DNA of 64,000 nucleotides from an uncultured Bacteroidales bacterium (GTDB taxonomy: Bacteria > Bacteroidota > Bacteroidia > Bacteroidales > CAIWKO01): contig CAIWKO010000054.1 in assembly GCA_903913285.1 (NCBI GenBank), forward strand, positions 1 through 64,000, read 5' to 3'. The notes beneath the pieces were generated by a model. It saw only the letters and a list, made by a program, of their open reading frames with translations, was not told the DNA's origin and made no database searches. This document shows, piece after piece, positions 2,687 to 45,723 of the stretch. The translations under genes were made by a program, and so were the position numbers. Numbering within the stretch: the stretch's first letter is position 1; each line of letters starts with the position of its first letter.

Positions 2687-2861
2687 TTAAATTATCGTTT
2701 TTTTTTCTCTTCCCTCCACAAATCTACAAATTTATCAACTCCCTATTTTATTGAAATAAAAATAAAGCAGGGACACAATTTCTCGTACCCCTGCTTTTTA
2801 TTTGGTTTTCAGGCATCGCCGTATAAACATCCCTTATCACGGTAATAACGTCCTGAGCAAC

Positions 2862-3134
2862 GGTACAATTGTACTGAGATACTGTACAAGTGTACCGGGT
2901 AATGGTACAATCGTACCGAGTAATGGTACAATCGTACCGAGTAATGGTACAACTGTACCGGGTAATGGTACAACTGTACCGGGTAATGGTACAACTGTAC
3001 CGGGTAATGGTACAACTGTACCGAGTGATGGTACAATCGTACCGAGTAATGGTACAACTGTACCGGGTAATGGTACAATCGTACCGAGTAATGGTACAAT
3101 CGTACCGAGTAACGGTACAATTGTACCGCATTTC
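2862..3134. repeat. Tandem array A: 13 units of 21 bp, each with a GGTAC/GTACC dyad
   Basis: Thirteen head-to-tail units with an exact 21-base period and no length changes (unit starts at 2862, 2883, 2904 ... 3114). Each unit has the arms GGTAC and GTACC around a 4-base spacer (AATT, AATC or AACT), then a 7-base linker of the form GRGTAAT. Units with spacer AATT are perfect 14-base palindromes. The first two and last units are the most diverged. Because 21 is divisible by 3, open frames run through the array on both strands, but they encode only low-complexity heptad repeats and are not genes. Confidence 0.95.
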
Positions 3135-20690: not shown

Positions 20691-20859
20691 AAATATTTAT
20701 TGAATTTTGCTTTTAAGATATTTCAAACAACCGAGTGACACGCCTAAAATTTGTTCTATAAATTATTTATTGCAAAAAACTATCCTTAACTATCAATACC
20801 AACGAGGTTTATAATGTAATTTAAAGTATCTTTGATCAATGTAAATAGGTTTTTGTTCA

Positions 20860-21069
20860 AATATAGTCGTATTTGTACCAAATATAGTCGTATTTGTACC
20901 GAATATAGTCGTATTTATACCAAATACAGTCGTATTTGTACCGAATACAGTCGTATTTGTACCGAATACAGTCGTATTAATACCAAATACAGTCGTATTT
21001 ATACTAAATACAGTCGTATTTTTACCGAATACTGTCGTACTTCAACAAAATACAATAGTTTTTACAAAA
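20860..21069. repeat. Tandem array B: 10 units of 21 bp, each with an AATAC/GTATT dyad
   Basis: Units start at 20860, 20881, 20902 and so on to 21049, with an exact 21-base period. Units 1-8 are good and 9-10 degenerate. The consensus is arm AATAC (or AATAT), 4-base spacer AGTC, arm GTATT, then a 7-base linker such as TGTACCR. This is the same 5-4-5-7 layout as array A at 2862-3134, although the sequences are unrelated. It lies past the lipA stop and 488 bases upstream of the BNR-protein start. The open frame through it codes only for a YSRICTE-type heptad repeat and is not a gene. Confidence 0.93.
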
Positions 21070-29380: not shown

Positions 29381-29655
29381 GAGGTATCTGGTCTATGGTA
29401 TAGGGTATCTGGTATGGGGTATCTGGTCCAGGGTATATGGTATGGGGTATCTGGTCTATGGTATCTTGTATTTGGCGATTAATTATTGTGAAAACTTGTA
29501 AATCATAATGAGAAATAAAAATGTGAAGAGGTGGTTTTTTTTTTATGTATCCGAATTAATGGATCGATTACCAAATTGCGGCCACCATAGACCTGTTACC
29601 AGATACCAGATACCACAGACTTGTTACCAGCTAACAGGTTCCAATTACCAGCTAC
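29381..29655. repeat. Inverted blocks of a GGTATCTGGT phrase
   Basis: The left block (29381-29470) holds five or six imperfect copies of GGTATCTGG/GGTATATGG. The right block (29585-29655) holds the reverse complement phrase (TACCAGATACC, TTACCAGCTA) several times. The blocks could pair into an imperfect cruciform or RNA hairpin about 270 bases long. The 348-base gap 29312-29659 contains nothing else recognisable. Confidence 0.75.
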
Positions 29656-29659
29656 CCTT

Positions 29660-30718
29660 TTAATTTTTCACTAATTTGGTTTCGAAATTTCCTTCGGCGC
29701 TTTGCAGCCTGACGAAATAAATTCCGTTGCGCAAGCGACCGACGGGAACCATAGCTTTTTGTTCGGCTGCGGCAGGCTGACGATACATCTCGTTGCCCAA
29801 AACATCAAAAATAAGGATTAACGGTTGGGTGAGTTGCGGCGGAATATCGATAGTGAGCACATCGGTGGCAGGGTTGGGACTCAAAGTAAGTTTCGGCCGG
29901 TTTAGTGCCGTGGGGATGCCATAATTGGCGGGGTGGAGGCTATCGTATAAAATGGTGAGCAGTCCAAACTGGTTGGTGATCTGCAACACGGGAACGTTGA
30001 GCTCGGTCGACAGCCATTTGTATTCGGTAACCACGCGGTTGATGTTGAATCCGTAGCTAATGGTGTCGGCATAGATGGTATCGGTGTAGTTGATGACCGA
30101 TTTCACGCGGATGACGTCGAAAGTGCCCGAGGGCAGTTTCAGGGTTCCCCAGCCGTCGACGTGGTTCACGCGATGCAGTTTTTCGCCGTAGTAGCCAAAC
30201 CCGCTGAGGCTGATGTGGTATTGAGAGTCGGACGAATCGGCGGTGCCGTAGGTAACCGGAAATTTATAGCGCACATCGGCATTATCGTAGGTTAAAGGCA
30301 CTCCCACGCCACTTATGGTTGCGCCCACGCCCACGGCCGAAAATTGCGCGCTTTTGTTCTGCATAAAGATATAGGTGTCGGTAATATTGAGCATCGGAAT
30401 GGATGGCATGGTGGTTTTTGTGGCCACGGTGGCCAGATGAGCGGCGTCGAAGGGGTTGCTGTAAGCTATATTGTAGGTGAGCGGGGTGGAGAGCACCGAA
30501 AGAAACGTATCGATGGTGGTGGTGGTGGGCGAGAGGCTCGAAAAATCCCAGGCGTAGTTTGCTCCTGTCAGGGCGTAGTCAATTCCGTTCACGTTGGAGG
30601 TTTGCAGCAGCGGAATGATATTTCCGGCCACCGGCATGTTGGCCGAAGTTATGCTGATCTGCGCACGAATTGTGAGCGAGGCCAATGCAAATGAGGCGAG
30701 CAGGAAAAACTTTTTCAT
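29660..30718 (-). CDS. Type IX-secreted protein, unknown function
   Basis: A 352-residue protein. The start is set at ATG 30718, where the signal peptide MKKFFLLASFALASLTIRAQ begins; the 66-codon upstream extension runs into repeat array C and has no signal. The mature part is a beta-rich domain with features of a common Bacteroidota secreted type (NYAWDFSSLSPT, WGTLKLPSGTFDVIRVKSV). The C-terminal sorting domain reads LTLSPNPATDVLTI, IFDVLGNEMYRQP and NGIYFVRLQSAEGNFETKLV. It is predicted to be exported by the type IX system. Array C begins 123 bases upstream. Confidence 0.85.
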   Translation of the reverse strand: MKKFFLLASFALASLTIRAQISITSANMPVAGNIIPLLQTSNVNGIDYALTGANYAWDFSSLSPTTTTIDTFLSVLSTPLTYNIAYSNPFDAAHLATVATKTTMPSIPMLNITDTYIFMQNKSAQFSAVGVGATISGVGVPLTYDNADVRYKFPVTYGTADSSDSQYHISLSGFGYYGEKLHRVNHVDGWGTLKLPSGTFDVIRVKSVINYTDTIYADTISYGFNINRVVTEYKWLSTELNVPVLQITNQFGLLTILYDSLHPANYGIPTALNRPKLTLSPNPATDVLTIDIPPQLTQPLILIFDVLGNEMYRQPAAAEQKAMVPVGRLRNGIYFVRLQSAEGNFETKLVKN

Positions 30719-30840
30719 CCGGATTTTTTTTACAAATCTATACATTAATCTATTCGGGTAAATGATGTTTGGTTTTTTAACAGAAATTTGTGTTTTTGAG
30801 TGAATGGCTTGTGAAAATGACAGTTGAAACCGCGATTTAA

Positions 30841-31165
30841 CCCGTCCCAACGCGTTGGATAGCGTAAAATCGTAAAATTTAGCCATCCCATCGCGTTGGA
30901 TAGCGTAAAATCGCAAATTTTAGTCGTCCCATCGCGTTGGATTGAGTAAAAAAGTTTTTTGAGCCCAATCCGACACGTCGGAACCCGTTCAAAAAAATTT
31001 TGAGCCCATCCGAACACGTTCAGGTGGGTTAAAAAAAATTTTGAGCCCATCCGAACACGTTCAGATGCGTTCAAAAAAATTTTGAGCCCATCCGAACACG
31101 TTCAGGTGCGTTCAAAAAAATTTTGAGCCCTCCCGAACACGTTCGGGTGCATCAAAAAGTTTTTT
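30841..31165. repeat. Tandem array C: 8 units of 41 bp, each with a dyad and A/T tract
   Basis: Eight dyad cores repeat at an exact 41-base spacing (core starts 30851, 30892, 30933, 30974, 31015, 31056, 31097, 31138). Unit 1 holds the perfect palindrome CCAACGCGTTGG. Unit 8 holds CCCGAAC-AC-GTTCGGG with 7-base arms. The middle units are intermediates (CCGAACACGTTCAGG). From unit 4 on, each also has a run of A followed by T (AAAAAAATTTTGAGCCC), a typical intrinsically bent tract. The rest of the 30719-31286 gap shows nothing recognisable. Confidence 0.93.
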
Positions 31166-31286: not shown

Positions 31287-31835
31287 TTACAACAAGGTCA
31301 ACGTTTCTATGGCTTTCAAAGCATTTTTATACCGCTCATCGCCCAAACCCGACACTACGGCAAAGTTTACCCTGCGCTCCGTTAATTCCCGATGATACCA
31401 ATCGAAAAAATACCGGCGCATGTGCGGATGTTCACGCAGCGGATCGGCTTCCCAGGGCAGATCGATATCGCACAGCAGATACAGATCGTATTTCACCTTC
31501 GGCAGGTTTTCGGCCACCCATGCGGGGCATTTTTGGTAGCGATGCTCTGCCCAGATCTTTATCACGCTAAGTTCCGTATCGCAAAACAAAAAACGGGTTG
31601 CCATTTTTTGCAAACATTTTTCGGCGGCAATTTGCTTTTTGGCCATAAACGTCAAATCGTCGTAAGTGTATTCGCGGCCCAGCTTGTCGAGATATTTTCG
31701 GGCAAATTCGGGCACGCAAACCGTGTTGAAATGCCGCGCCAGATAAACCGACAGCGACGATTTGCCCGTAGATTCGGGCCCGGTGATGGCCACCCGCACT
31801 ATGCGGCGCGTTGTTTCGTGTAGTCCTTTTTCCAT
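31287..31835 (-). CDS. NadR-like ribosylnicotinamide kinase domain protein
   Basis: A 182-residue P-loop kinase matching the C-terminal domain of NadR. It has Walker A GPESTGKSS near 20, then VCVPEFARKYLDKLGREYTYDDL, FLFCDTELSVIKIWAEHRYQ and YDLYLLCDIDLPWEADPLRE. The start is set at ATG 31835 (MEKGLHETT); it overlaps the end of pnuC by 37 bases, and longer extensions run through pnuC in another frame. The stand-alone kinase would phosphorylate nicotinamide riboside as it enters through PnuC. There is no NMN adenylyltransferase or HTH domain. Confidence 0.88.
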   Translation of the reverse strand: MEKGLHETTRRIVRVAITGPESTGKSSLSVYLARHFNTVCVPEFARKYLDKLGREYTYDDLTFMAKKQIAAEKCLQKMATRFLFCDTELSVIKIWAEHRYQKCPAWVAENLPKVKYDLYLLCDIDLPWEADPLREHPHMRRYFFDWYHRELTERRVNFAVVSGLGDERYKNALKAIETLTLL

Positions 31836-32419
31836 TTCAAATATCCGTAAACGGACAAAAGTGTAAAGATAAAATATAGCGGCGAGAAGGCGAAAAGATG
31901 TTTGAAAAAATAAATAGCGGTGCAGTTCAGGTTTATCACGATCCACATCAGCCAGTGTTCCATTATTTTTTTCGCCATGGCGTATGTGGCGATAACGCCC
32001 CAAACCGTCACCAGCGAATCCCAATACGGGAAAGCGGCGTCGGTGTAGTTCCTCAAAAAATAGCCCAAAACGCCCGTCAGGCCGAAACCCAGTATCAGCA
32101 TCACGATAAACTCCTTGCGGAACAATTTGCGGATGGGAACTTCATATTTTTTCTGCCCGCCGAACACCCAGAAATACCAGCCGTAGATCGTTATCACCAG
32201 ATAGAAGACCTGTAGAATTACATCGGCATACAGCTTCGAAAAAAAGAAAACCCACATCGAAATGATCACGTTCAGCAAACCCACGGGCCAGCACCAGATG
32301 TTTTGTTTCGCCTCGAGCCAAACCCCCACCAGGCCGAGCACCGAACCGGTGATTTCAACCCAATGAACCAACATCCATTGCAAAATAATATCGATACGGT
32401 CAACTTGCAGCAACAACAT
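31799..32419 (-). CDS. pnuC: PnuC-type nicotinamide riboside transporter
   Basis: A 206-residue integral membrane protein with about seven helices. Family features are QNIWCWPVGLLNVIISMWVF in the first third, ADVILQVFYLVITIYGWYFW (IYGWY signature) and YAMAKKIMEHWLMWIVINLN. PnuC relatives carry nicotinamide riboside, while PnuT relatives carry thiamine. The overlapping NadR-type kinase favours the former. The adjacent YkoF-like thiamine-binding gene keeps the latter possible. No TPP riboswitch was recognised upstream. Confidence 0.88.
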   Translation of the reverse strand: MLLLQVDRIDIILQWMLVHWVEITGSVLGLVGVWLEAKQNIWCWPVGLLNVIISMWVFFFSKLYADVILQVFYLVITIYGWYFWVFGGQKKYEVPIRKLFRKEFIVMLILGFGLTGVLGYFLRNYTDAAFPYWDSLVTVWGVIATYAMAKKIMEHWLMWIVINLNCTAIYFFKHLFAFSPLYFIFTLLSVYGYLKWKKDYTKQRAA

Positions 32420-44520: not shown

Positions 44521-44932
44521 TTGCATGTTGTAGAAATTGAAAGGGTGTGCTGAAATACGTACTTGCCGATCCTGAAATTGAAGAAAGCGTTTGTCGATCT
44601 CAGGGTTGTTCCCCGCACATAGAGGGACGTCCCCCTATGATAGAGGGACAACCCTCCGATGTAGAGGGACAACCATGAGCAACAGAGGGATGCCCCCCTG
44701 ATATAGAGGGACGACCATGAGTAATAGGGGGACGCCCCTCCGGAACAGGGGGACGCCCCCCTGCAACTGGGGGGAGTCCCCTCGGAGCTGGGGGGAATTT
44801 CTGAGCGCAAGAAACTGTTCGGAAAATGTTGCGTTTGCTGCAACATAAAATTATACCATCATCGCGCCTGTCCGTTTCATGAATAACATTAATACAGCGC
44901 ACAGCAAAAGTATATTGTTGCACGTTGTAGAA
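44521..44932. repeat. 15-bp direct repeats flanking array D
   Basis: TTGCATGTTGTAGAA at 44521-44535 and TTGCACGTTGTAGAA at 44918-44932 (14 of 15 identical, same orientation) enclose array D and about 110 bases past it. They could be remnants of an insertion, recombination sites or shared regulatory sites. No transposase or terminal inverted repeats are seen. The remainder of the 44287-44991 gap has no recognisable gene. Confidence 0.6.
44600..44809. repeat. Tandem array D: ten units of 21 bp, G/C-rich dyads
   Basis: Unit starts fall every 21 bases: 44600, 44621, 44642 and so on to 44789; the first and last units are diverged. Units contain RGGGG then a 4-base spacer (ACGC, ACGT, ACAA) then CCCCY and a short linker. 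The unit at 44747 is perfect: AGGGGG-ACGC-CCCCCT. Others are imperfect, and the units at 44663 and 44705 lack the right arm. The layout again equals 5-4-5-7. Open frames through it encode PS-rich or RG-rich heptads and are rejected as genes. Confidence 0.9.
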
Positions 44933-44991: not shown

Positions 44992-45723
44992 ATGGCATCA
45001 AAAGATTATATTCCTCATAAAGATAGATTATTCCACATTTGGCAGGACAATTTTGTGAATGGCGTTAACGAAAATTATGCCAGTTGGGATTTGCCCGCGC
45101 GTGCCGCAACCGAATGGACGCTGCTCACCGCCACTCCCGGCACCAAGAAAATGCGTTGGGATGCTGCGTGGGCAAACGTCAGTACAAATAACTTTACACG
45201 TTCGCAAAATGTTGAAATGAACGATGCCCGCCGGGAATATGAAAGCGGTTTCAGAACATCGGACAGCGACACAAGTTTGCGTTTGTTTATTAAACGTTAT
45301 TTGCGCAACAATCCTTTGGTGACCAACGGGCAAAGAATTCAAATGGGCATAACAATTCCCGATGAAGATAAAAGTGGTCCGTTAGATAAAAACGCACTCA
45401 TCGACCTGTGGGGACTCGTGCGCAGTGTGGATCATTTGGTGCATCTGATTCAGGTAACAGTTCCGGGTCGCCGGAGCAGGGCGAAAGGCAGGGGAGTTAA
45501 AGACATACAGGTTTTTATGGCCATCACACCTGCCAGTCAAACAGCATCGCCTTCTTTAAGTTCCTTTGCCTATATTGGTGTTGTGAAGCGCGGCCTGATG
45601 ATTCAACTGTTCAGCGAGGATCAGGTAGGCATGCGTGCACATTATTATGCCCGTTTCAGGTTTGAAGGCAAAATAGACTCTTATGGCCCACCCAGTTCGT
45701 ATTGGAGTTGCATAATCATGTAA
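44992..45723 (+). CDS. Conserved protein of unknown function (MASKDYIP family)
   Basis: A 243-residue protein without a signal peptide. Notable segments: MASKDYIPHKDRLFHIWQDN, then FVNGVNENYASW, a helical middle (RLFIKRYLRNNPLVTNGQRI) and a Gly/Arg-rich loop (PGRRSRAKGRGVKD). The C-terminal half has beta strands (VFMAITPA, FAYIGVVKRGLMIQLF, RAHYYARFRFEGK). It resembles a recurring Bacteroidota protein type that I cannot name with a function. It is the plus-strand gene closest to array D, which ends about 180 bases upstream. Confidence 0.75.
   Translation: MASKDYIPHKDRLFHIWQDNFVNGVNENYASWDLPARAATEWTLLTATPGTKKMRWDAAWANVSTNNFTRSQNVEMNDARREYESGFRTSDSDTSLRLFIKRYLRNNPLVTNGQRIQMGITIPDEDKSGPLDKNALIDLWGLVRSVDHLVHLIQVTVPGRRSRAKGRGVKDIQVFMAITPASQTASPSLSSFAYIGVVKRGLMIQLFSEDQVGMRAHYYARFRFEGKIDSYGPPSSYWSCIIM

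Follow-up and report, generated by a model that had tools for sequence, protein, structure and literature searches.

The genome of an uncultured Bacteroidales bacterium (G000; assembly of 3.99 Mb in 70 contigs) carries, between a NadR-like gene and a gene for a type IX (T9SS) cargo protein, a tandem array of palindromic 41-bp units, array C. What is this array, and does it serve the gene beside it? We address these questions from the window, that is, the whole 64,000-nucleotide stretch of DNA that was analysed (to which unprefixed coordinates refer), from other parts of the same genome, and from the sister species (G001), a member of a different family in the same order (G307), and genomes G002 and G003.

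Anatomy of array C

Array C is intergenic and consists of eight 41-bp units (30838 to 31165) that abut without gaps and start at 30838, 30879, 30920, 30961, 31002, 31043, 31084, and 31125. The period is exact, confirming the eight evenly spaced cores described in an earlier note on this DNA, and amounts to about four helical turns, as that note also held. The core is CCAACGCGTTGG in unit 1, CCATCGCGTTGG with a single T·T mismatch in units 2 and 3, CCGACACGTCGG in unit 4, CCGAAC-AC-GTTCAG in units 5 to 7, and CCCGAAC-AC-GTTCGGG in unit 8. All eight units are degenerate inverted repeats of about 20 + 20 bp, longer dyads than previously given, whose arms form Watson-Crick pairs at 11 to 15 of 20 positions. 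The consensus dyads exceed those of letter-shuffled units (P = 0.0004 for units 4 to 8; P = 0.03 for units 1 to 3). An A/T tract had been noticed in the later units and is indeed present, as A7T4 or A8T4 in units 4 to 7 and as A5-6GT6 in units 3 and 8; units 1 and 2 have none.

As RNA, the array folds far above shuffled sequences on both strands (z = -9.4), which follows from its being a tandem palindrome; any such array would fold. It contains no CRISPR-type spacers, the units abutting directly, and zero terminator-like sites (a GC stem and a T run). Searches of Rfam and of plasmids with array C gave no match, nor did a search of genome contigs for the exact two-motif pattern.

Array C is a mosaic of unit types found in other arrays

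Further arrays of the array C family occur in G000 at C3:41962-42289 and C2:5129-5332 (the C3 and C2 arrays), with a diverged relative at C10:39586 (shuffle P = 0.0005), which in turn has a close match at C34; two more are present in G001 and one in G307. Measured against these arrays, array C divides into three parts.

30838 to 30960, no strand: units 1 to 3, 41 bp each, of the C2-array type; the blast link to the C2 array lies above all permuted controls.
30961 to 31001, no strand: unit 4, whose nearest type is the G001 array at C20:27527 (32/41 identical).
31002 to 31165, no strand: units 5 to 8, of the C3-array type (35 to 38/41 identical), with A7T4-like tracts, and more distantly like the gene-linked array of G307.

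Unit 1 is identical to the C2 consensus at 34 of 41 positions. The cores had been read as shifting through intermediates along the array; the comparison instead reveals a switch of unit types (C2, G001, C3), and a smooth gradient was rejected on the same grounds. Judged from unit sequences, array C is a mosaic of discrete unit types.

A sequence model of the units (R1) detected no arrays of this family in G002 or G003, and its convincing matches fell solely inside arrays, with a few lone hits at E values of 0.4 to 0.6 (150 candidates scored per genome). A search of G000 found no gene-linked partner for units 5 to 8 and the C3 array. When the flanks of array C and of the C2 and C3 arrays were compared, no shared leader or tail sequence was found, and the longest terminal inverted matches in the flanks of array C, at 8 bp, are at chance level. 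A short gene resembling an IS200-type transposase (L216:6179-6625) lies about 390 bp from the 41-bp array at C34.

Paired arm changes separate unit types but are not borne out within arrays

Four arrays supplied 23 distinct units, although their pair cells derive from no more than a few unit types; 71% of these cells are paired, as opposed to 62% after shuffling, and 14 of the 18 pairs show two-sided change. Pair 16/25, which is C-G in 12 of the distinct units and G-C in 11, is never broken. Within arrays, deviations from the group consensus break a pair in 25 cases, keep one in 10, and create one in 24, and one array of the sister species has a degraded core in four of its five units. The proposal of compensatory arm changes, to be checked by covariation among units of related genomes, therefore fares differently at the two levels: it is supported between unit types, where change is mostly two-sided and pairing exceeds that after shuffling, and it is not supported within arrays, where changes break pairs more often than they keep them. 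With breaks exceeding retentions and about equaling creations, pairing as an ongoing constraint is not borne out, and RNAalifold recovered no consensus structure.

Reading the C2-array core, CCAACGCGATGG, on the opposite strand gives exactly the core of units 2 and 3, CCATCGCGTTGG, and a G001 array includes one unit with a perfect palindrome of 40 bp. Template switching between hairpin arms is a known hairpin-perfecting mutation (PMC8794818). Since arm swaps and perfected palindromes are products of this process, they do not demonstrate selection on pairing, and arm-to-arm template switching can be an alternative source of the two-sided changes.

The neighboring T9SS gene

Array C is flanked by two genes.

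29663 to 30718, minus strand: T9SS cargo gene with a Por_Secre_tail match (PF18962, E = 1.7e-9); array C lies on its 5' side.
31290 to 31838, minus strand: NadR-like AAA_28 gene; array C lies on its 3' side.

The T9SS gene starts about 120 bp from array C, and the PF18962 match bears out both the identity and the distance reported earlier. A functional link between the two did not hold up. G002 has nadR and then the T9SS gene, but the gap between them lacks an array; in G001, what precedes the T9SS homologue is a 21-bp array of unrelated sequence; and the sister arrays of array C occupy divergent, convergent, and codirectional gaps. An operator role for this gene was rejected because the array is not conserved at the relatives, and on these comparisons we judge the T9SS gene to be a coincidental neighbor. 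A clean empty site in G003 was considered and rejected, its flanks not being syntenic.

The gaps that hold 43 arrays comprise 25 codirectional, 11 divergent, and 7 convergent ones, compared with 206, 71, and 37 among all gaps. These proportions match the background, indicating that arrays have no orientation bias. A terminator role was rejected for this reason and for the lack of terminator-like sites.

Arrays with helix-tied periods across the genome

The survey of G000 covered 1.3 Mb, about one-third of the genome, and recovered 56 intergenic arrays with periods of 21n or 41n bp; period statistics refer to 896 kb and only to non-coding arrays 100 bp or longer. Periods of 21, 42, 63, or 84 account for 30 of the 40 arrays in this set, and periods of 41 or 123 for four. 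The sister species is alike, with 21n-type periods in 11 of 14 arrays and periods of 41 or 123 in 2 of 14; the bias is not seen in G002, whose sample is without long 21n arrays, or in the order-wide sample. Array sequences in G000 are mostly unrelated from locus to locus, and dyads are not supported as a general rule for the 21-bp arrays (Fisher P = 0.14). Several contigs end within arrays (the ends of L038, L184, and L185 and the starts of L099 and L105), and draft genomes therefore under-count them. Heptad-like tracts with 7-, 14-, or 21-bp repeats also occur in gaps (window positions 29383 to 29471; L025:5094-5438), including in G002.

Arrays lie in front of three families of small proteins

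The C2 array precedes, by 192 bp, a gene (C2:5524-6480) whose 319-aa product has no database match (no Pfam match) and defines family C. In front of its homologues in G001 and in G307 (the latter at 40% amino acid identity), 41-bp arrays lie at a distance of about 356 bp, and the three arrays are related to one another in the same orientation to the gene (similarity score of 46, versus 9 for permuted arrays). Family C loci were picked by protein homology alone from 343 genomes of the order, with matches in 8, plus three loci in G003; at 21 of the 23 with enough upstream sequence, a 41n or 42n array is present 5'. At 17 of the 21 family A loci the array has a 21n period, and such arrays accompany family B (about 204 aa) at seven of eight G000 loci and, in other classes of the phylum, at the majority of loci.

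Outside G000 and G001, arrays occur 5' of 16 of 18 family C genes, 8 of 11 family A genes, and 5 of 6 family B genes (the last including two weak cases, one array being 609 bp away and one having 3.3 copies), in contrast to 2 of 265 control genes. The Fisher P values against these controls (4e-22 for C, 1e-11 for A, and 1e-8 for B) are overstated because paralogues within the families are non-independent, but the contrast remains large. Within G000, 14 of the 16 family A, B, and C genes have an array, versus 50 of 772 genes overall. The arrays usually lie about 50 to 530 bp in front of the family genes.

Array period follows protein family, being 21 bp for family A and 41 or 42 bp for family C. 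Of the 17 arrays linked to family A, 16 have an identity of 0.6 to 0.97 at lag 21; for those linked to family C, lag 21 is near background and identity is high at 41 or 42. Array similarity and protein similarity are weakly correlated (Mantel P = 0.006 for A and 0.023 for C).

In AlphaFold models, the family C protein begins with a long helical part and ends in a jelly-roll/cupin-like domain (pLDDT 91), and the family A protein has six helices and an FN3-like domain (pLDDT 85). In fold searches with the former, the C-terminal part alone was recognizable, the N-terminal helical matches being chance hits of the bundle type; the hits were generic, and folds absent from the hit lists are not thereby excluded. 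The likeness of the modeled C protein to toxin or viral jelly rolls is that of a common fold only. No DNA-binding domain was recognized in the A, B, or C proteins, and neither a plasmid search with proteins A, B, and C nor a phage search with proteins B and C gave a match.

Several other genes deserve mention. Additional array-associated genes encode SpaA or carboxypeptidase-regulatory-like domains. A motif resembling G(N/S)DLxGK(V/P)(R/K) precedes a beta-sandwich domain in L148:12696-13598, L146:4640-5026, L038:12314-13045, and family A. More small-protein families in G000 have an array 5' (L132:4073-4696 and L224:9923-10573; L138:8023-8997 and L223:12298-13275). At L179 (G209:C12:287371-291213), a family C gene with an array of 84-bp period adjoins a CRISPR-like array whose repeat, ending AATTTCTACTATTGTAGAT, resembles a type V (Cas12a) repeat.

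Orphan arrays repeat the sequences of gene-linked arrays

Comparison of the 56 G000 arrays with unit-permuted controls yielded 13 links in 11 clusters, mostly pairs. Eight of the 11 clusters pair a single gene-linked array with a single orphan, a count only mildly above random pairing, with gene-linked status beyond families A, B, and C assigned partly by eye; three contain orphans only, and none joins two gene-linked arrays. Members of the gene-linked/orphan pairs share the repeat and not the flanks, the exception being L214/L231, which have one flank in common. Both forms are present in the window.

2855 to 3128, no strand: orphan 21-bp array, matching L145:13366-13633, the array 5' of family A gene C20:122489-123211 elsewhere in G000, at 76% over 270 bp.
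20858 to 21054, no strand: orphan 21-bp array with a 63-bp higher order and a dyad unit.
44621 to 44763, no strand: 21n-bp array 5' of a family A gene, the gene-linked form within the window.
44992 to 45720, plus strand: family A gene encoding 243 aa, a helical N-terminal part and an FN3-like domain; no Pfam/NCBIfam match.

By its unit sequences, array C is best read as an orphan array of family C-type repeats, of which units 1 to 3 are of the type that precedes a family C gene (at C2). A trio of orphan 21n arrays (L142:5983, L226:1140, and L226:13042) has both flanks as well as the repeats in common; in contrast to array C, these probably represent a minisatellite borne on a MITE-like mobile element.

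Alternative explanations

The main rival to a repeat-binding system is a passive satellite, produced by slippage, unequal exchange, and hairpin template switching, in which array C does nothing specific. The fixed period would then reflect a mechanical bias of copying or repair toward whole turns, and the link to genes would have another cause, such as tolerance of long 5' regions. The mosaic of unit types, the similar rates at which pairing is gained and lost, the placement of arrays in all gap orientations at background rates, the relatives lacking array C at the equivalent locus, and two-sided changes explicable by template switching (PMC8794818) are all in keeping with such an origin. It leaves unexplained, however, why the period depends on the neighboring protein family, why 16 of 18 family C genes but only 2 of 265 controls have arrays, and why members of different bacterial families keep a 41-bp repeat beside the same gene; we regard it as possible but somewhat doubtful.

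The remaining readings ascribe array C to mobility, transcription, or control of its neighbor. That it is the internal minisatellite of a transposase-moved, MITE-like element of the BrickBuilt or 464/PgRS type has a precedent in Bacteroidota with 23-nt and 41-nt tandem repeats (PMC4596501), and the flanks shared by the L142/L226 trio, as expected of mobile elements, and the IS200-like gene near the C34 array point the same way; this origin is nevertheless unlikely, given that array C and the C2 and C3 arrays lack a common leader or tail and that terminal inverted repeats do not exceed chance matches. Also improbable is a function as transcribed RNA, whether a hairpin regulatory RNA, a 5' leader that stabilizes an mRNA, or a terminator block for nadR: that both strands fold strongly and that same-class arrays are transcribed in Bacillus coagulans (PMC8161180) would suit it, but array C has neither terminator-like sites nor an Rfam match, arrays show no orientation bias, and changes within arrays fail to preserve pairing, with no RNAalifold consensus. 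Least credible, and in our estimation very improbable, is a bent or dyad-rich operator of the T9SS cargo gene. Its distance of about 120 bp from the start codon, on the 5' side, and the near-helical phase of the A-tracts in units 4 to 7 are set against the missing array before the G001 and G002 relatives, the unrelated genes beside the sister arrays, and the presence of only one A-tract per four turns, with none in units 1 and 2.

A proposed two-part system

We favor, at somewhat short of an even chance, the reading of array C as an orphan member of a two-part system of cognate repeat-binding proteins and arrays in cis and in trans. One part would be the spacer-free intergenic arrays, with a period tied to the helix (21 bp for two turns, 41 to 42 bp for about four) and a locus-specific sequence; the other would be the genes for small proteins, each with a predicted helical N-terminal and beta-sandwich C-terminal domain, that have an array in front. 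Orphan arrays elsewhere in the genome repeat the sequence of a gene-linked array. The anatomy and mosaic of array C, the association of arrays with genes, the family-specific period, and the sequence matches in cis and in trans are observed; by analogy with sopC/SopB and iterons/Rep, we infer that the proteins bind the repeats: the family C protein, probably as a dimer or oligomer, would bind its repeat on a single face of the double helix, in cis at its own array, which may bring about autoregulation, and in trans at orphan arrays such as array C. Bound arrays could form a nucleoprotein patch that affects neighboring transcription or nucleoid structure, and any effect of array C on the T9SS gene would be of this presumptive kind. 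Unequal recombination would let arrays grow, shrink, and exchange units, the last of which would account for the mosaic of array C.

More generally, and still tentatively, G000 may harbor a chromosomal protein-satellite system, made up of fast-evolving families of small proteins, each with a cognate array whose period is set by the family and whose sequence drifts, with copies in cis and in trans.

Comparison with known repeat systems

REP and BIME sequences are intergenic palindromes of 20 to 40 bp that occur largely as dispersed single or paired copies (PMC3733652), whereas units of the array C type were found within arrays alone in the R1 model search. TAACTGA and other heptamer direct repeats, known from Beggiatoaceae, Cyanobacteria, and some Bacteroidetes (PMC4679880), are likewise spacer-free, intergenic, and present in Bacteroidota; they differ in that the 7-bp unit has a single fixed sequence and is not palindromic, and in lying near start codons. 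The BrickBuilt and 464/PgRS elements of Porphyromonas gingivalis are MITE-like, with a leader, a tail, and terminal inverted repeats (PMC4596501). Compared by description and not by sequence, they resemble array C in being intergenic sequences of a Bacteroidota genome, with 23-nt and 41-nt tandem repeats and long predicted stem-loops, and differ from it in their leader, tail, and terminal inverted repeats.

The F-plasmid centromere, sopC or parS-F, has twelve 43-bp tandem repeats, each with a 16-bp inverted repeat, that are bound by SopB/ParB (PMC6238139). It is an analogue in the way it works: its repeats, like the eight 41-bp dyad units of array C, are tandem, and they lie next to or near the gene for the binding protein. 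Unlike sopC, the G000 arrays are chromosomal, many, and of unrelated sequence; the partner at C2 is a family C protein and not ParB, and the neighbors of array C are the NadR-like and T9SS genes, with no parA or parB. In plasmid iterons, direct repeats spaced by about two helical turns precede the gene for the cognate Rep protein, each protein having its own repeat sequence. The array-linked proteins are unrelated to Rep, with no origin or Rep domain, and their arrays have trans copies across the chromosome, unlike iterons.

The closest counterpart is the class of constant-size, variable-sequence bacterial tandem repeats of Subirana and Messeguer, which were called enigmatic and for which no function was known (PMC8161180). 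These are intergenic, spacer-free, and species-restricted, with a period of 20 to 21 nt and several sequence families per genome, and the array background of G000 matches this class: 30 of its 40 arrays have periods of 21, 42, 63, or 84, with mostly unrelated sequences. Periods in the class are 20 to 23 nt (or double) or 52 nt, which G000 fits overall; array C, at 41, is one base short of twice 21, and its units, unlike those of the class, are palindromic. Sequences of the class are restricted to a species and their positions poorly conserved; array C is absent at the equivalent loci of G002 and G001, yet the 41-bp type recurs in G001 and, in another family, in G307. Not reported in the paper on the class (PMC8161180) are the ties of constant-size arrays to gene families, a period that goes with the family, and matched copies in cis and in trans. 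Repeats hitherto without known function now have candidate binding proteins and candidate sites, and, if the proposal is true, the protein-satellite system would be the missing partner of the constant-size, variable-sequence tandem repeats of bacteria.
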